In this document: one piece after another, positions 12,270 through 18,151 of the stretch
Numbering within the stretch: the stretch's first letter is position 1
How the letters are laid out: each line of letters starts with the position of its first letter
DNA from: Alphaproteobacteria bacterium
GTDB taxonomy: Bacteria > Pseudomonadota > Alphaproteobacteria > GCA-2731375
DNA: 48,696 bases
Direction of reading: 5' to 3'
Assembly: GCA_021776235.1 (NCBI GenBank)
Contig: JAJFGG010000169.1
Span: forward strand, 1 to 48,696
Made by a program: the position numbers and the translations under genes
The notes under the pieces: generated by a model
Database searches by the model: none
The model's input: the letters and a program-made list of their open reading frames with translations, nothing else
What the model was told of the DNA's origin: nothing

Positions 12270-14003
12270 CTACGCCGGTGCTTTGACGCGCACCCGGCGC
12301 CGGGAGGTTTTGCCGCCGGCCGGCCCCTGACTGGGTAGCTCGCGGGCATCCGGCACCAAATGTACCGCCATTGTCCCGGCCCGGCCCCGAACGGTGACCT
12401 GGCGTACCTCGAAGGCGTTGAGGTCGGCGCCGGCGCGGTCCGCCACGAAGCTGGAGACGACCGCCTGAACCGCAAATTCCTTGGTCATGGCTTCCAGGCG
12501 CGAGGCGGTATTGACGATATCGCCGACTGCGGTGACCGAGGTCGCGGGGCCATAGCCCATTTCACCGACGATGGCGGCGCCCGCATGCACCCCGATACCC
12601 ATGCGCAAGGGCTGGTCCAGGTCGTGGCGCAGCTGATGGTTCAAATGTTCCAGGGCCTGGGCCATGCCCGCCGCCGCCGCCAGGGCTTGGCGGCAGCCCT
12701 GTTCCAGGCTGGTTTCCACGCCGAACAGGGCCATGACCCCGTCGCCGATGAATTTATCCAGATGGCCCCCCGCCGCCTCCACCGCCTGGCCCATGCCACG
12801 GAAGTATTGGTTCAGGGCAAACACCACGTCGTAGGGCAACTTGGCCTCGGCGAACTGTGTGAAGGCGCGAAGATCGGCAAATAGCACGGCGATTTCGCGC
12901 TCGCTGCCTTGCAGATAGTTGGGCCGCGGTCGGCCGCTTTGCAGGCTGACGTTGGGCGGCAAAAGGGGCACCACGGCAACCGCCGCGGTGGGGCGCAATT
13001 GACAGGCCAGACGTACGCTGCTGGGCGCCCCGATCCGGGCCAGCACTTTCAATTCGTTCTCGCTGGCCGGCGGCAAGTCCGATTGACCGGCTGCGATGCG
13101 AACGCGGCAGGTTGAACAGCGCCCCCGCCCGCCGCAGACCGAGGCATGGGCGATGCCGGCCAGGCGAGACGCGTCCAGAATGCTCAGTCCCGGTTCGACG
13201 GCGACCTCGTGGCCATCGGGGTAGGCGATGGTGACGCGGACGCCGCGCCGGGACCACAGGCGGCGCAGCCAACGCCCCAGAAGGATTGCAGCCAGGACAA
13301 TGGCCGTGCCGAGGAAGATGTAGTCCAGGGTGCCATAGACAAAATCCACCAAGGCCGGCAGGGAATTGCCGAGCTTGAAGGAGGCCATGGCCGCCTCCAT
13401 CCAGGTTTTATCCTGGGCCCAAATGGCGATCTGTTTACCGGCGCCGGCAAAGCCCGATAGCGCCAGGCTGGGCAGTAACAGGGCCGCGGTCAAAAGCCAG
13501 GGCCGGGTCCGGCCGTACCAGGGCCGCAGGCGCAGCCATTGATGCAGGCCGATGCAGCCGTGGCTCCATACCACCACGAGTCCGGCCGCAAGAAGCCAGC
13601 CGTTTTCCGGCGCCAGGACCCAGACACTCAGAATTTCGAACAAATAACTGTCGTTAAGGCCGAACAATTCATGCCCGCCCCGTGTTGCCAGAACATGGGC
13701 CGGCATCAGAAAGGGAATACACAGGGCCAGTACGACTTGAAAACCCTCGGTCAGGGACATGCGCAACGTGCGCCGCCGCCACAACGCCAGCAATGCCATC
13801 AGGACATGCAGGGATATGGCGCCATATAACAGAATGGTCGCGGGCCAGTTGCGCCAGATGGCGGTGAATATTTCGCGCCCGGCCTCCATGGCAGCAAGGG
13901 AAATATTTCCCAAGGCATGGTTCAGGAAATGGCTTGTCACGAAAACGAGCAGCACCAAGCCGCTACCTAAACTCAGTTTTCGCGGCCAGCCCATGATGTC
14001 CAC
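12270..14003 (-). CDS. cyaC: Membrane-anchored class III adenylate cyclase with [2Fe-2S] domain (CyaC-like)
   Basis: About 577 residues in three parts. Residues 1-245 form a membrane domain of about six helices with several His in or near helices (about 26, 30, 67, 104, 149, 155), resembling the diheme cytochrome b anchor of succinate dehydrogenase. Residues 255-340 are a plant-type ferredoxin domain with C-x5-C-x2-C (about 291, 297, 300) and a fourth Cys near 335. Residues 365-545 are a class III cyclase with metal Asp in LFADLRAF and GDGVMALFG and the substrate/transition-state residues of GDIVNTASR, so it should be active. The design matches S. meliloti CyaC, a quinone/redox-responsive cyclase. 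GTG 14003 has AGGGA six bases upstream; ATG 13994 is an alternative. Confidence 0.88.
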   Translation of the reverse strand: MDIMGWPRKLSLGSGLVLLVFVTSHFLNHALGNISLAAMEAGREIFTAIWRNWPATILLYGAISLHVLMALLALWRRRTLRMSLTEGFQVVLALCIPFLMPAHVLATRGGHELFGLNDSYLFEILSVWVLAPENGWLLAAGLVVVWSHGCIGLHQWLRLRPWYGRTRPWLLTAALLLPSLALSGFAGAGKQIAIWAQDKTWMEAAMASFKLGNSLPALVDFVYGTLDYIFLGTAIVLAAILLGRWLRRLWSRRGVRVTIAYPDGHEVAVEPGLSILDASRLAGIAHASVCGGRGRCSTCRVRIAAGQSDLPPASENELKVLARIGAPSSVRLACQLRPTAAVAVVPLLPPNVSLQSGRPRPNYLQGSEREIAVLFADLRAFTQFAEAKLPYDVVFALNQYFRGMGQAVEAAGGHLDKFIGDGVMALFGVETSLEQGCRQALAAAAGMAQALEHLNHQLRHDLDQPLRMGIGVHAGAAIVGEMGYGPATSVTAVGDIVNTASRLEAMTKEFAVQAVVSSFVADRAGADLNAFEVRQVTVRGRAGTMAVHLVPDARELPSQGPAGGKTSRRRVRVKAPA

Positions 14004-14018
14004 CAATTATCCCTGATA

Positions 14019-16877
14019 CTAATGCGCCTCGGCCCAGCTATCGCCGATTCCGGCATCGGCGACCAGGGGGACGGAAAGACGGGCTGCGCCCTCCATCACC
14101 CGTTTCACCACCGCCACGGTTTCATCGACCTCGGCCACGGGCACTTCAAAGATCAGCTCGTCATGCACCTGCAACAACATAGGCGCGCCAAGGCCGGCCG
14201 TGGCCATGGCGCCGGGAATTGCCACCATGGCCCGGCGGATCACATCCGCCGCCGAACCCTGGATCGGGGCATTGATGGCGGCCCGTTCGTGGAAGCCGCG
14301 CCGGGCCGGGTTCTTGTCATTGATGCCCGGCATATGCACCCGGCGGCCATGGATGGTTTCCACATAGCCCAGTTCCCGGCAACTTGCCTTGGTCCGCTCC
14401 ATATAGTCGCGAATGCCCGGGTATCGTTCGAAATAGGCGTTGATATAGTCCTGGGCCTCGCCCCGGCCAATGCCCAGATTGTTGGCCAGGCCAAAGGCCG
14501 AAATGCCATAGATGATGCCGAAGTTGATGGCCTTGGCCCGGCGCCGTACCATCGGGTCCATACCGTCCATGGGCAGGTTGAAAACCTGGGCCGCGGTCAT
14601 GGCATGAATATCCTGGCCGGCGTGAAAGGCCTCGCGCAGGGCGGTGATGTCGGCAATGTGGGCCAGAATGCGCAATTCGATCTGGGAATAATCCGCGCTC
14701 AGCAATTTGTGCCCCGGCGCGGCGATAAAGGCCTTGCGAATGCGCCGGCCCTCTTCCGTGCGAATGGGAATGTTCTGCAAATTCGGATCCGTCGATGACA
14801 GGCGCCCGGTCGAGGTTGCGGCCATGGCGTAGGACGTATGGACCCGGCCCGTGGCACCGTTGATCTGGTTCTGCAGGGCGTCCGTATAGGTGCTTTTTAG
14901 TTTTGCCAACTGGCGGTATTCCAGGACCCGCACTGGCAGGTCATGGCCCTGGGCGGCCAATCCTTCCAGTACATCCGCGCCAGTGCCATAGGCCCCGGTT
15001 TTGGTTTTTTTGCCCCCTGGTAGGGACATCTTATCGAACAGGATCTCGCCCAGTTGTTTCGGCGAATTGACGTTGAAGATCTCGCCGGCCAGGTCATGGA
15101 TCTCTCCTTCCAGGATGGCAATACGGGTCGCGAAGTCGGCGGAGAGCCGCGCCAGTTCCGCCCGGTCCACCAAAATGCCGGCCTGTTCCATGGCCACCAG
15201 GACCGGCACCAAGGGCCGCTCCAGGGTTTCATAGACCGTGTGCTTGCGGACCTCCTGCAAACGCGGTTTCAGGTGCTGGTACAGGCGCAGGGTCAGGTCC
15301 GCGTCTTCGGCCGCGTATTCGGTGGCCTTGTCGAGGGGCACCCGGTCAAAGGTGATCTTCGATTTGCCGCTGCCGGCGACCGCCTTGAAGGGGATCGGTT
15401 CGATGTCCAGGTGCAGCTTGGACAACTCATCCATACCGTGGCCATGCAAACCGCCCTCGGTCACATAGGACAACAACATGGTGTCATCGAAGGGCGAAAT
15501 TTCAACGTCGTACCGGCGCAACACCAGCATGTCGTATTTCAGGTTCTGCCCCACCTTCAGGACCGATGGGTCGGCCATCAGCGGCCGCAGCAGGTCCAGA
15601 GCTTGTTCCAGGGGGAGTTGATCCGGCGCCGCCGAGGCCGAGCCCTCCAAATCCAACTCTCCCGCCGGGACCGGGCCCAGGTGGCCCAGAGGAATATAAC
15701 AGGCCTGCCCCGGCCGGACCGAGAGTGAGATGCCGACCAGATCCGCCACCATGGCATCCAGCGACGTGGTCTCCGTATCCACCGCCACCACGCCGACGGA
15801 CCGCGCCCGGTCAACCCAATGCTGTAATTCAGCCAAATTCTGTATGCATTGGTAATCCAGCGTTGGCGCCGCTGCAGGCTCTGTGTCGGCTGCCGGATCG
15901 AGCGCCGCAGCCATTGCGGACACCGTCGCGCCGTCGGAACCCAGGCGTTGGGCAATGCGTTCGGCCAGGCGTTTCAGGCCCATCTCGGCCATGAAGTCCA
16001 GCAAGACCGCTCCGTCCGGCGTCCGCAGACGCAATTCATCGAGCGGCAGTTCCAGCGGCACATCAATTTTCAGGGTCACCAGTTGCCGGCTGACCCGGGC
16101 CAGGTCCGCATGCTCGATAAGATTTTGCCGCCGTTTGGGCTGCTTGATCTCGCCGGCCCGTTCCAGCACACCGTCCAGATCACCGTACTCATTAATCAAC
16201 AAAGCAGCGGTCTTGATACCTATACCCGGTACACCTGGCACATTATCGGTGGCATCGCCGCACAAGGCCTGGACATCGATCACCCGGTCCGGGCCGACGC
16301 CAAATTTCTCCATTACCTGATCCGGGCCAATATTGCGCTGTTTCATGGGGTCATGCATGATCACGCCGTCGCCGACCAGTTGCATCAGGTCCTTATCGGA
16401 ACTGACGATAGTAACCTGCATGCCGGCTTCGCGGGCCTGCCGGGCATAGGTGGCGATAACATCGTCGGCCTCGTAGCCCGGCATTTCGATAGTGGCCAGA
16501 TTGAAGGCCTGGCTGGCCCGCTTGACCAGAGGGAATTGGGGCACCAGATCTTCCGGCGCCGGCGGCCGATGGGCCTTGTATTCGGGATAGATATCATTGC
16601 GGAAGGTCTTACGGGCGGCGTCGAAAATCACCGCGAAGTAGTCGACCTCACCGGCATCGCGCACATCATCAACAAGCTTCGAAAGCATGTTGCAAAAGCC
16701 CGAGACGGCGCCAATGGGCAAGCCGTCGCTTTTGCGCGTCAGGGGGGGCAGTGCATGATAAGCGCGAAAAATATAGGCCGAACCGTCGATCAGAAATAGA
16801 TGGCTGGGCCCACCATTGGGCGCCGTGACGGGCGCAGTGGCGCCGTCAGAATTGGCATTGCTGTTTTGCTTGTTCAT
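14019..16877 (-). CDS. polA: DNA polymerase I
   Basis: A 952-residue three-domain polymerase for Okazaki-fragment processing and repair. Residues about 25-310 form the 5'-nuclease domain (FLIDGSAYIFRAYHALP, MPGYEADDVIATYA, the helix-hairpin-helix region GVPGIGIKTA). The middle is a 3'-5' exonuclease with intact acidic residues (VAVDTETTSLD, GQNLKYDMLVL, YAAEDADLTL), so proofreading is probably retained. The polymerase domain has motif A SADYSQIELRILAHI, motif B RRAKAINFGIIYG and motif C LQVHDELIFE. The ATG at 16877 gives a short Asn/Gln-rich leader before the nuclease fold. A candidate small RNA lies divergently upstream. Confidence 0.98.
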   Translation of the reverse strand: MNKQNSNANSDGATAPVTAPNGGPSHLFLIDGSAYIFRAYHALPPLTRKSDGLPIGAVSGFCNMLSKLVDDVRDAGEVDYFAVIFDAARKTFRNDIYPEYKAHRPPAPEDLVPQFPLVKRASQAFNLATIEMPGYEADDVIATYARQAREAGMQVTIVSSDKDLMQLVGDGVIMHDPMKQRNIGPDQVMEKFGVGPDRVIDVQALCGDATDNVPGVPGIGIKTAALLINEYGDLDGVLERAGEIKQPKRRQNLIEHADLARVSRQLVTLKIDVPLELPLDELRLRTPDGAVLLDFMAEMGLKRLAERIAQRLGSDGATVSAMAAALDPAADTEPAAAPTLDYQCIQNLAELQHWVDRARSVGVVAVDTETTSLDAMVADLVGISLSVRPGQACYIPLGHLGPVPAGELDLEGSASAAPDQLPLEQALDLLRPLMADPSVLKVGQNLKYDMLVLRRYDVEISPFDDTMLLSYVTEGGLHGHGMDELSKLHLDIEPIPFKAVAGSGKSKITFDRVPLDKATEYAAEDADLTLRLYQHLKPRLQEVRKHTVYETLERPLVPVLVAMEQAGILVDRAELARLSADFATRIAILEGEIHDLAGEIFNVNSPKQLGEILFDKMSLPGGKKTKTGAYGTGADVLEGLAAQGHDLPVRVLEYRQLAKLKSTYTDALQNQINGATGRVHTSYAMAATSTGRLSSTDPNLQNIPIRTEEGRRIRKAFIAAPGHKLLSADYSQIELRILAHIADITALREAFHAGQDIHAMTAAQVFNLPMDGMDPMVRRRAKAINFGIIYGISAFGLANNLGIGRGEAQDYINAYFERYPGIRDYMERTKASCRELGYVETIHGRRVHMPGINDKNPARRGFHERAAINAPIQGSAADVIRRAMVAIPGAMATAGLGAPMLLQVHDELIFEVPVAEVDETVAVVKRVMEGAARLSVPLVADAGIGDSWAEAH

Positions 16878-16984
16878 GGCGCCACTATGCCACGCCTGAA
16901 GCGAAGGTGGAATGATGACAATTTGCGAACGGCAAATTCCGCGGCGCGGGTCGACATGCCCCAGCGTCAGACCAGGAGGTGCTT

Positions 16985-17092
16985 ATGGCGAGCCACCAGG
17001 AACGCCGCCTTACCCTCTCGGATGGCGCCGCGAAGTCTGGCGATAGGCCCGCAACGCGGTGTCGCGCGCGCCTGCCCGAGAACCTCGGATAG
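16985..17092 (+). CDS. Possible 35-residue small protein with a strong ribosome binding site
   Basis: An AGGAGG (16974-16979) sits five bases before ATG 16985, opening 35 codons to TAG 17090-17092. The product begins MASHQERRLTLSDGAAK and is Arg-rich and hydrophilic with no recognisable domain. It lies between polA and the candidate sRNA, divergent from polA. The ribosome binding site is the only real support. A minus-strand reading of the same DNA (16967-17149) looks less convincing. Confidence 0.28.
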   Translation: MASHQERRLTLSDGAAKSGDRPATRCRARLPENLG

Positions 17093-17213
17093 CTGTATCA
17101 ATAGATCACCATTCGGCCAAATTTGTAGCGTATCAATGACTAAAGACATAAGTGCGTATGCGCTTATATATAAACATTAGAAGAATAAAACATAGCTGCG
17201 TTACAACGTAATA

Positions 17214-17219
17214 TATAAT
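17214..17219 (+). promoter_or_regulatory. Probable -10 box for the small RNA
   Basis: A perfect TATAAT lies in an AT-rich island (17161-17225) inside otherwise GC-rich DNA. It would start transcription at about 17226. No good -35 hexamer is seen at the normal distance. Confidence 0.45.
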
Positions 17220-17225
17220 TAACAC

Positions 17226-17380
17226 ACCGCCTGTACCATCCAGGTCGTTCGAAACGTATTTGGCGAACAAGCAAGGCACCGGTCCTTTTCGTCCATGCCG
17301 GTGTTGCTGAGCCGGGCCCCTCCTCCTCCGGCCCAGCCTTAATTGGGGCGTCGCGGCTATTGCCGCGGCGCCCCTTTTTT
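17226..17380 (+). ncRNA. Candidate trans-acting small RNA with anti-Shine-Dalgarno loop (alpha-r7-like)
   Basis: Three hairpins are visible in about 155 nt. First, AGCAA-GG-CACCGG pairs with CCGGTG-TTGCT (closing near 17304-17308). Second, GGGCC (17314-17318) pairs with GGCCC (17330-17334) and exposes an 11-nt loop CCTCCTCCTCC, a perfect anti-Shine-Dalgarno. Third, the terminator at 17345-17380. Alphaproteobacterial sRNAs with CCUCC loops are known, and the alpha-r7 family (Smr7C of Sinorhizobium) is, as I recall, encoded next to polA, which matches this position. Exact 5' end is inferred from the -10 box. No protein-coding reading explains the region. Confidence 0.72.
17345..17380 (+). terminator. 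Strong Rho-independent terminator of the small RNA
   Basis: A 13-bp stem (GGGGCGTCGCGGC with GCCGCGGCGCCCC, one G-T pair), a TATT loop and six T's. There is no plus-strand protein gene ending before it, so it most likely terminates the sRNA. It also lies 13 bases beyond the end of the convergent MBL hydrolase gene. Confidence 0.9.
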
Positions 17381-17392
17381 CGCCATCCCGCT

Positions 17393-18151
17393 TCAGGAAA
17401 CTTCGACGATCAGGCCGTCATGAGCCGGCACTACTCCCGCCGGCAATTCGCTGCACAGGGATTGATAGTCCATGTCACTGGCCATATGCGTAAGAAGGGC
17501 GCGCTTTGGACGCAGGCGTTCGATCCATTCCAGGGTTTGCGCCAGATGGGTGTGGGTTGGATGCGGTTGCGGGCGCAAGGCATCGACGATCCAGAGATCC
17601 AGATCCCGCAGCAATTCGAACGAGTCTTCAGGCAGGCCGTTCAGATCCGTGGAATAGGCAATGGAACCAAAGCGAAAGCCCTGGCTTTCCATGGAGCCGT
17701 GGATCTGCCGAAAGGGTACGACGTCAATGTCGCCCACAGTGAAAGGCCCCGCAAAGGTATGGGCGGTGGCGATGGGGGGATAATTCTTGGCGTTGGCAAA
17801 AATATAGCTAAAACGAGTCTGCAATCCGGTCATGGTATCGGCGGTGCCATAAACGGGAATGCGCTGGCCCTGCAACAAAGCGAAGCCGCGCAGATCGTCA
17901 ATACCGTTCACATGATCCGCATGGTCATGGGTGTAGAGCGCCGCATCCAGATGCTGAAGATTGATCTCAAGGCATTGTTCGCGCATGTCCGGTGTGGTGT
18001 CGACAATCAGGGTGGTCGTGGCGCTTTGCACCAGGATCGAGGAACGGCGGCGGCGGTTGCGCGGCTCGGCGGGATCGCACGCACCCCAGACATTGCCGAT
18101 CCGTGGTACGCCGGCCGAAGTGCCACAACCCAATACGGTTACCCGCATCAT
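17393..18151 (-). CDS. MBL-fold metallohydrolase (PhnP-like)
   Basis: A 252-residue metallo-beta-lactamase-fold hydrolase. It starts RVTVLGCGTSAGVPRIG, has NRRRRSSILVQS, the DTTPDMREQ stretch, the metal motif THDHADHVNGIDDLR, a later HGSMESQGF, STDLNGLP and THTHLAQTLEWI. This pattern is that of PhnP-like phosphodiesterases, which commonly follow tatD in alphaproteobacteria. The first ATG (18149-18151) overlaps the tatD stop as ATGA; a second ATG follows immediately. Substrate unknown, probably a cyclic or linear phosphodiester. Confidence 0.9.
   Translation of the reverse strand: MMRVTVLGCGTSAGVPRIGNVWGACDPAEPRNRRRRSSILVQSATTTLIVDTTPDMREQCLEINLQHLDAALYTHDHADHVNGIDDLRGFALLQGQRIPVYGTADTMTGLQTRFSYIFANAKNYPPIATAHTFAGPFTVGDIDVVPFRQIHGSMESQGFRFGSIAYSTDLNGLPEDSFELLRDLDLWIVDALRPQPHPTHTHLAQTLEWIERLRPKRALLTHMASDMDYQSLCSELPAGVVPAHDGLIVEVS

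Follow-up and report, generated by a model that had tools for sequence, protein, structure and literature searches.

What lies in the gap between polA and the neighbouring gene for an MBL-fold hydrolase in this alphaproteobacterial genome, and does it act? The window (the whole stretch of DNA that was analysed, 48,696 nucleotides) carries polA (DNA polymerase I) on the minus strand at positions 14019–16877, recognised by its Pfam DNA_pol_A and exonuclease domains and by mapping of the neighbours, and the hydrolase gene, also on the minus strand, at 17393–18151 (Pfam Lactamase_B_2). No recognisable protein was found between the two. Counting both strands, 12 frames of at least 25 residues overlap 16878–17392, and the seven that were scanned gave no Pfam match over cut-off. 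A closed sense frame of at least 12 residues is absent altogether from six of the 15 homologous copies described below. On these two grounds a small protein was rejected, and the absence of a coding explanation, claimed in the initial annotation of this DNA, holds. We note that the gene adjacent to polA at 12270–14006 (minus strand) encodes 2Fe-2S ferredoxin and adenylate/guanylate cyclase catalytic domains in one protein.

The gap contains a structured RNA gene at about 17244–17380 on the plus strand, divergent from polA and, in the genus, convergent with the hydrolase gene. The computations establish a conserved, covarying RNA with a conserved loop and promoter-like elements. We consider it reasonably probable that this is an RNA gene with its own promoter, about 135 nt long and folded into four hairpins, in which an anti-Shine-Dalgarno loop on the hairpin H2 blocks the translation of several mRNAs. 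The predicted transcript (17244–17380, plus strand) is defined by 15 homologous copies, covariation, a covariance model (R1) and a fold with a z-score of −4.59. The homologues carry the weight of the argument, because single measures (terminator, promoter and 11-mer counts) are weak when taken alone.

When 61 genomes were searched at the DNA level, the element turned up in G011, the only one of four genomes from other genera of the family that has it, and in all but one of the 11 genomes of the genus, giving 11 polA-side copies. From DNA alone, the homologues beside polA had E-values of 6e-34 to 2e-7. The tally of this search is 13 and includes short matches in G043 and G053; on reading, these and a second place in G007 (E 0.002–0.004) were not copies. 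PolA is the divergent neighbour of the RNA in both genera that have it (in G005 the contig with the RNA stops short of polA, which lies at the start of another), and the MBL gene was not found beside the RNA in G011. Four genomes (G003, G004, G007 and G008) have a second copy beyond the MBL gene (L012:384–520 on the minus strand, L017:1434–1569, L007:2573–2716, and L016:1455–1591 on the minus strand), which lies between the MBL gene and tatD in G003, G004 and G007; tatD was not seen in G008. Using the covariance model on 15 genomes of the order, we recovered the same set, with strong matches in 11 genomes; G014 gave a weak match of 24 bits that is not on its polA contig, and with filters off the polA loci of G012, G013 and G014 gave no copy (best 9.8 bits over the three loci). 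In its own genome the RNA scores 133.7 bits with model R1 and the next separate place 20.2 bits. A mobile repeat was rejected, since there is a single copy in this genome.

We also searched across the class. PolA was matched in 105 of 115 genomes, and model R1 gave one weak match only (15.1 bits, E 0.13) in the 68 loci upstream of polA that were examined besides our own. With stricter filters, 289 genomes of the class yielded two with strong matches (the own genome and G009) and two with weak ones (27–29 bits). The 80 loci around the MBL gene contained nine strong copies in seven loci, all of the genus. L019 added a remnant of 20.4 bits and L080 a weak match of 14.1 bits; further matches lie on the opposite strand at the copies themselves. 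In these class-wide, order-wide and MBL-locus searches, the RNA was not found outside two genera. The closest relative by its PolA fragment (G006, 94%) has lost the RNA by deletion: promoter and RNA body are gone, and a changed terminator-like hairpin is left between the MBL gene and polA (L019:4753–4904). The named records of this genus come from metagenome assembly, and the isolate names suggest a marine origin.

The initial annotation described three hairpins; they are present, and the count is four, i.e. one 5' hairpin, two in the middle and the terminator. The 5' hairpin H0 (17247–17268, plus strand, as are all four; GUUCG ... CGAAC) has five pairs, of which one changes on both sides among the copies; 80.0–88.9% of its cells are paired, and it is poor in the distal copies G003b, G004b and G007b. 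Hairpin H1 (17276–17304) has eight pairs, five with both-side changes and 94.2% of cells paired, and H2 (17306–17337), which exposes the loop CCCCUCCUCC, has nine pairs, four with both-side changes and 97.7% of cells paired. The terminator hairpin H3 with its T tract (17345–17380) comprises 13 pairs at 17345–17374 (six with both-side changes, 92.8% of cells paired), a loop predicted at 4 nt in the window copy, and six T's at 17375–17380. The terminator with six T's is therefore as first described, with a T tract that varies in relatives (4–7 T's within eight bases after the stem, often broken as in TTTCA). A simple terminator scan of 16880–17480 returned this one site against a shuffle mean of 0.6. 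Another terminator scan, which needs T-rich tails and would miss many family members, was given no weight. The fold of 17226–17380 has a z-score of −4.76, and none of 200 shuffles was equally stable.

In the alignment A1 of the 15 copies (where G008b is the polA-side and G008a the distal copy), standard pairs occupy 93.3% of 521 cells. Covariation at homologous polA loci, the check that the initial annotation had proposed, is present: both-side changes affect 16 of the 35 pairs among these 15 mutually related rows, against a shuffled mean of 7.4 and with none of 500 shuffles reaching 16. Slid structures gave 1–6 such pairs, a control that leans towards the structure because the structure was derived from the window copy. 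One of five measures was not above chance, namely further pair types (34 against a shuffled 32.3, reached by 97 of 500 shuffles). Mean identity, calculated for 10 of the 11 polA-side copies (G005 was dropped, its contig ending upstream), is 83–86% in the H2 stem and whole loop, 78% in H0, 75% in the terminator, 64–70% in H1, whose stem lies at 64–66%, and 34–47% in linkers, spacer and tail, with the linkers alone at 35–47%.

The best conserved stretch in these 10 copies is CCTCCTCC (97.5% mean identity). An 11-nt perfect anti-Shine-Dalgarno had been placed in the loop: CCTCCTCCTCC does occur at 17319–17329 (plus strand), and its last two or three bases belong to the stem (17328–17329 lie in the H2 stem), with 17319–17326 being the part that is 97.5% identical. 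The 11-mer occurs twice in the own genome, as does its reversed control. CCTCC is found in 14 of the 15 copies and CCTCCTCC in 13, the exceptions to the latter being G010 and the distal copy of G003; for the polA-side copies the counts are 11/11 and 10/11. Loss of the CCTCC loop in close relatives had been named as evidence that would speak against the element; G006, with the whole RNA deleted, is such a case, and each of the 11 polA-side copies present retains CCTCC. The loop of H1 (17284–17296) is conserved as GUC[C/U], mostly CCGUCC. Its GUC (GTC in the DNA) is invariant in all 15 copies, and CCGUC[C/U] is found in 12, the window copy being among the three that deviate. Taken with the homologues and the covariation, the conservation of the H2 loop gives good support to the claim that a small RNA beside polA exposes an anti-Shine-Dalgarno loop.

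We then asked which known family, if any, the RNA belongs to. The window has no match to an Rfam 15 family at gathering score. Among the alpha-r families that had been suggested for searching, alpha-r7 gave no match at the locus, and alpha-r14 (RF02344) is the nearest but below its cut-off; with relaxed settings it heads the Rfam matches of the window copy, at 32.6 bits (E 3e-4, cut-off 58.8). That the RNA is a true but diverged alpha-r14 or 'cuckoo' member by descent is, in our judgement, unlikely, though worth keeping in view. Besides that best match, descent would account for the same hairpin order, with the anti-Shine-Dalgarno loop before the terminator, for nearby second copies in four genomes, and for matches in three of the 14 copies in ten relatives' loci (41.9 bits for the distal copy of G004, 33.7 and 33.4 bits). 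Against it, no score exceeds 58.8 in any of the 61 genomes, the other 11 relatives' copies have no alpha-r14 match at E up to 0.5, two relatives' loci weakly match BjrC68, and the motif stands in one loop only. With stricter filters applied, the own genome has no alpha-r14 match with E ≤ 0.1. Alpha-r14 matches of about 31 bits also occur at loci without CCTCC (L104), so that 32 bits is about the noise of GC-rich hairpin arrays.

Two side observations concern similar hairpins. In G036 (contig C1, 245431–245802; L099 / L108) there is a hairpin array with CTCCTCCTCCCT loops that matches alpha-r14 with 56.9 and 52.9 bits and CcsR1 repeatedly, all below the cut-offs; it is perhaps an unlisted cuckoo array and, with the motif in every loop, looks different from the window RNA. 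Terminator-like hairpins with a CCTCC-type loop also occur in the genus, in the family and elsewhere in the class (L105 in G001 C156, L106 in G014 C126, and L103 in G057 C13).

As for function, the most likely reading by analogy is a trans-acting small RNA that, like NfeR1 and sX13, covers ribosome-binding sites; we propose it because the anti-Shine-Dalgarno loop is strictly conserved on variable stems. The loop CCCCUCCUCC, which reads as a copy of the ribosome's anti-Shine-Dalgarno sequence, would pair with GGAGGAG-type ribosome-binding sites of several mRNAs. Once covered, these sites would no longer support translation, as with alpha-r14 (NfeR1) and sX13, and the RNA would probably lower protein production from selected genes. 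The H1 loop GUC[C/U] may serve as a second contact or as the source of target choice. NfeR1 is a described case: its loops pair with the initiation region of ntrB and silence it, and NtrB and NtrC are reduced, according to the part of that study consulted (PMC10746234). Hfq-independence is among the features of alpha-r14; the own genome encodes Hfq.

The pattern GGAGGAGG with an ATG 2–8 bases on has 15 occurrences in the own genome, compared with 3 of its reversed form, and it was commoner than its control in all six genomes tested. Six of the 15 own-genome sites precede an open frame of at least 100 residues and one more precedes rpsS (92 aa). Out of 111 places in the six genomes, 60 were fetched, with both the choice and the gene names made by eye; among these 60, three genes recur clearly, namely rpsS (G000, G010), an enolase-like gene (G000, G004) and an hsp20-like gene (G004, G009), and a fourth recurring pair has only 29.5% identity (G004, G005). 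Such recurrence indicates a strong ribosome site, not targeting, and we regard the rpsS, enolase-like and hsp20-like genes as leads from sequence, not as targets. The own-genome sites contain no coherent target set, and few recur among the compared genomes. A target with the perfect 11-nt complement was rejected, since the only other genomic place (C168) is at the end of a 256-aa frame, not at its start. Alternatively, the main role of the hairpins might be that of an RNA sponge or protein decoy and not an action on ribosome-binding sites. The conserved H1 loop, which is not an anti-Shine-Dalgarno, would fit such a role; we nevertheless think it quite improbable, given that the best conserved stretch is CCTCCTCC and that strong GGAGGAGG sites stand before start codons.

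The preferred reading, an RNA gene whose loop covers ribosome-binding sites, includes a promoter of its own. A conserved element, TTACAAnGTAA-N7-TTAA, lies at 17201–17222 (plus strand) and overlaps the −35 region; its mean identity is 74.8% in 10 of the 11 polA-side copies, compared with 36.5% for the upstream block and 33.9% for the spacer. Eleven bases after the conserved TTAA, itself seven bases after GTAA, begins the −10-like TACCAT (17234–17239, plus strand), conserved as TAnnnT: in all 11 polA-side copies the first two bases are TA and the sixth is T, and the middle three bases vary. The TATAAT on which the initial annotation relied does exist, at 17214–17219, and is not conserved. From the position of TAnnnT we expect the transcript to start near 17243–17247, which replaces the earlier start at 17226 (about 155 nt). 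A simple scan found no sigma-70 promoter. Since the conserved element overlaps the −35 region, it suggests an activator. We take GTAA-N7-TTAA to resemble a CtrA box. Activation by CtrA is disfavoured, as none of the nine Trans_reg_C proteins in the genome is CtrA by score: one scores as PhoB (337.1 over 296.2), six fall below the cut-offs of the OmpR/PhoB-type models that they match, and two have no match at E 1e-20. For three of the nine, the CtrA model is among the 25 best matches, with at most 167.9 bits against 350, and a search of the 250 bases upstream of each of the nine genes found no GTAA-N7-TTAA box. The second copies lack the TTAC half and keep GTAA-N7-TTAA with at most one change (two of the four intact, two with one change), and on that account they may be regulated differently from the polA-side copies. 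TAnnnT is in register in none of the four; one has TATTTT a base further on.

Transcription of the plus strand is favoured because G-U cells outnumber A-C cells on it: 35 to 18 in all 15 rows, 21 to 11 without the helix-end pairs, and 24 to 7 in 11 rows (G011 and three distal copies dropped). An RNA of the plus strand is thus more likely. That the minus strand forms a structured polA leader regulating polA in cis, with GGA-bearing loops as possible sites for a CsrA-like protein or for ribosomes, we hold to be very improbable: it would agree with the nearly equal fold of that strand (z −3.92), the GGA motifs in its loops and a position upstream of polA in both genera, but the G-U excess, the plus-strand reading of TAnnnT, of its 11-base spacing to TTAA and of the T tract, and the second copies in four genomes beyond the MBL gene, away from a polA leader, all count against it.

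The plus-strand RNA can now be set beside the systems it resembles. A distant alpha-r7 member, as suggested in the initial annotation, was rejected: alpha-r7 (RF02342) has no match at the locus at E up to 5, and its sole match in the own genome (E up to 1) is on contig C41, with 29.8 bits against a cut-off of 60. On that contig we also observed a SAM_alpha riboswitch (L253:100–175) that, at 36.6 bits, just exceeds its cut-off of 36; the weak alpha-r7-like match is about 1.3 kb away. The suggested synteny of alpha-r7 is correct in that sra03 (SmrC7) lies in the intergenic region beside polA, between polA and Y02851 in Sinorhizobium (PMC2245857, in the portion consulted). By our reading of its table, sra03 runs in the direction of polA and the window RNA in the opposite one. 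Alpha-r7 also has stem-loops with C-rich motifs, as stated in the consulted part of the sX13 paper (PMC3771888).

The CcsR1–4 RNAs of Rhodobacter sphaeroides share the arrangement of a hairpin with a CCUCCUCC loop followed by a second hairpin with T's; CcsR1 (RF02791) scores 25.7 bits at the window, under its gathering score of 65.3. CcsR and a DUF1127 gene are transcribed together (PMC10253847, consulted in part), whereas no DUF1127 frame was found beside the window RNA (seven of the 12 frames scanned; the neighbours are polA and the MBL-fold hydrolase gene). The sX13 RNA of Xanthomonas shares with the window RNA the polA locus and a C-rich loop, and its own C-rich loops target G-rich motifs close to starts (PMC3771888, consulted in part). 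It differs in lying downstream of polA and in having 4C/5C loops, according to the same text, and no sX13 match appears in the relaxed Rfam list.

The sX13 paper, in the part consulted, mentions small RNAs at polA for E. coli (Spot 42), for Xanthomonas and, with alpha-r7, for alphaproteobacteria, and asks whether they occur in further bacteria (PMC3771888). The window RNA is one more polA-locus small RNA, confined, as far as searched, to two genera. Independent origin seems likelier than shared descent for these RNAs, because their side or direction relative to polA differs. A bolder reading counts Spot 42, sX13, alpha-r7 and the window RNA together and makes the locus of this replication and repair gene a recurrent or ancestral, functional home of C-rich-loop RNAs in the Proteobacteria, with ribosome-site blocking tied to polA and the two loops as separate seeds; we would call this a long shot. 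By titles and abstract openings, the literature search found no publication on the window RNA. It represents a conserved small RNA family without an Rfam 15 gathering-score match, in a lineage represented here by genomes alone. With one strict anti-Shine-Dalgarno loop and one different conserved loop, it lends itself to a simple test of whether the second loop directs what would otherwise be a general ribosome-site blocker to particular targets.

The closest comparison is with alpha-r14 (NfeR1/SmelC397), which belongs to the 'cuckoo' RNAs. The two are alike in length (near 123–135 nt), in having several hairpins on variable stems and an anti-Shine-Dalgarno loop motif, and in occurring in more than one copy in some genomes. 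In the consulted parts of the alpha-r14 papers (PMC10746234, PMC7143759), all three hairpins carry the same motif, CCUCCUCCC, unpaired, and the same holds for the related SmelA075 and SmelA099 (PMC3927594, section 2.7); the window RNA has it in H2 only. The window RNA further differs in its H1 loop GUC[C/U], its additional 5' hairpin and its polA neighbourhood. With the motif in one loop, not three, we do not file it as alpha-r14, but by analogy it probably works like one.
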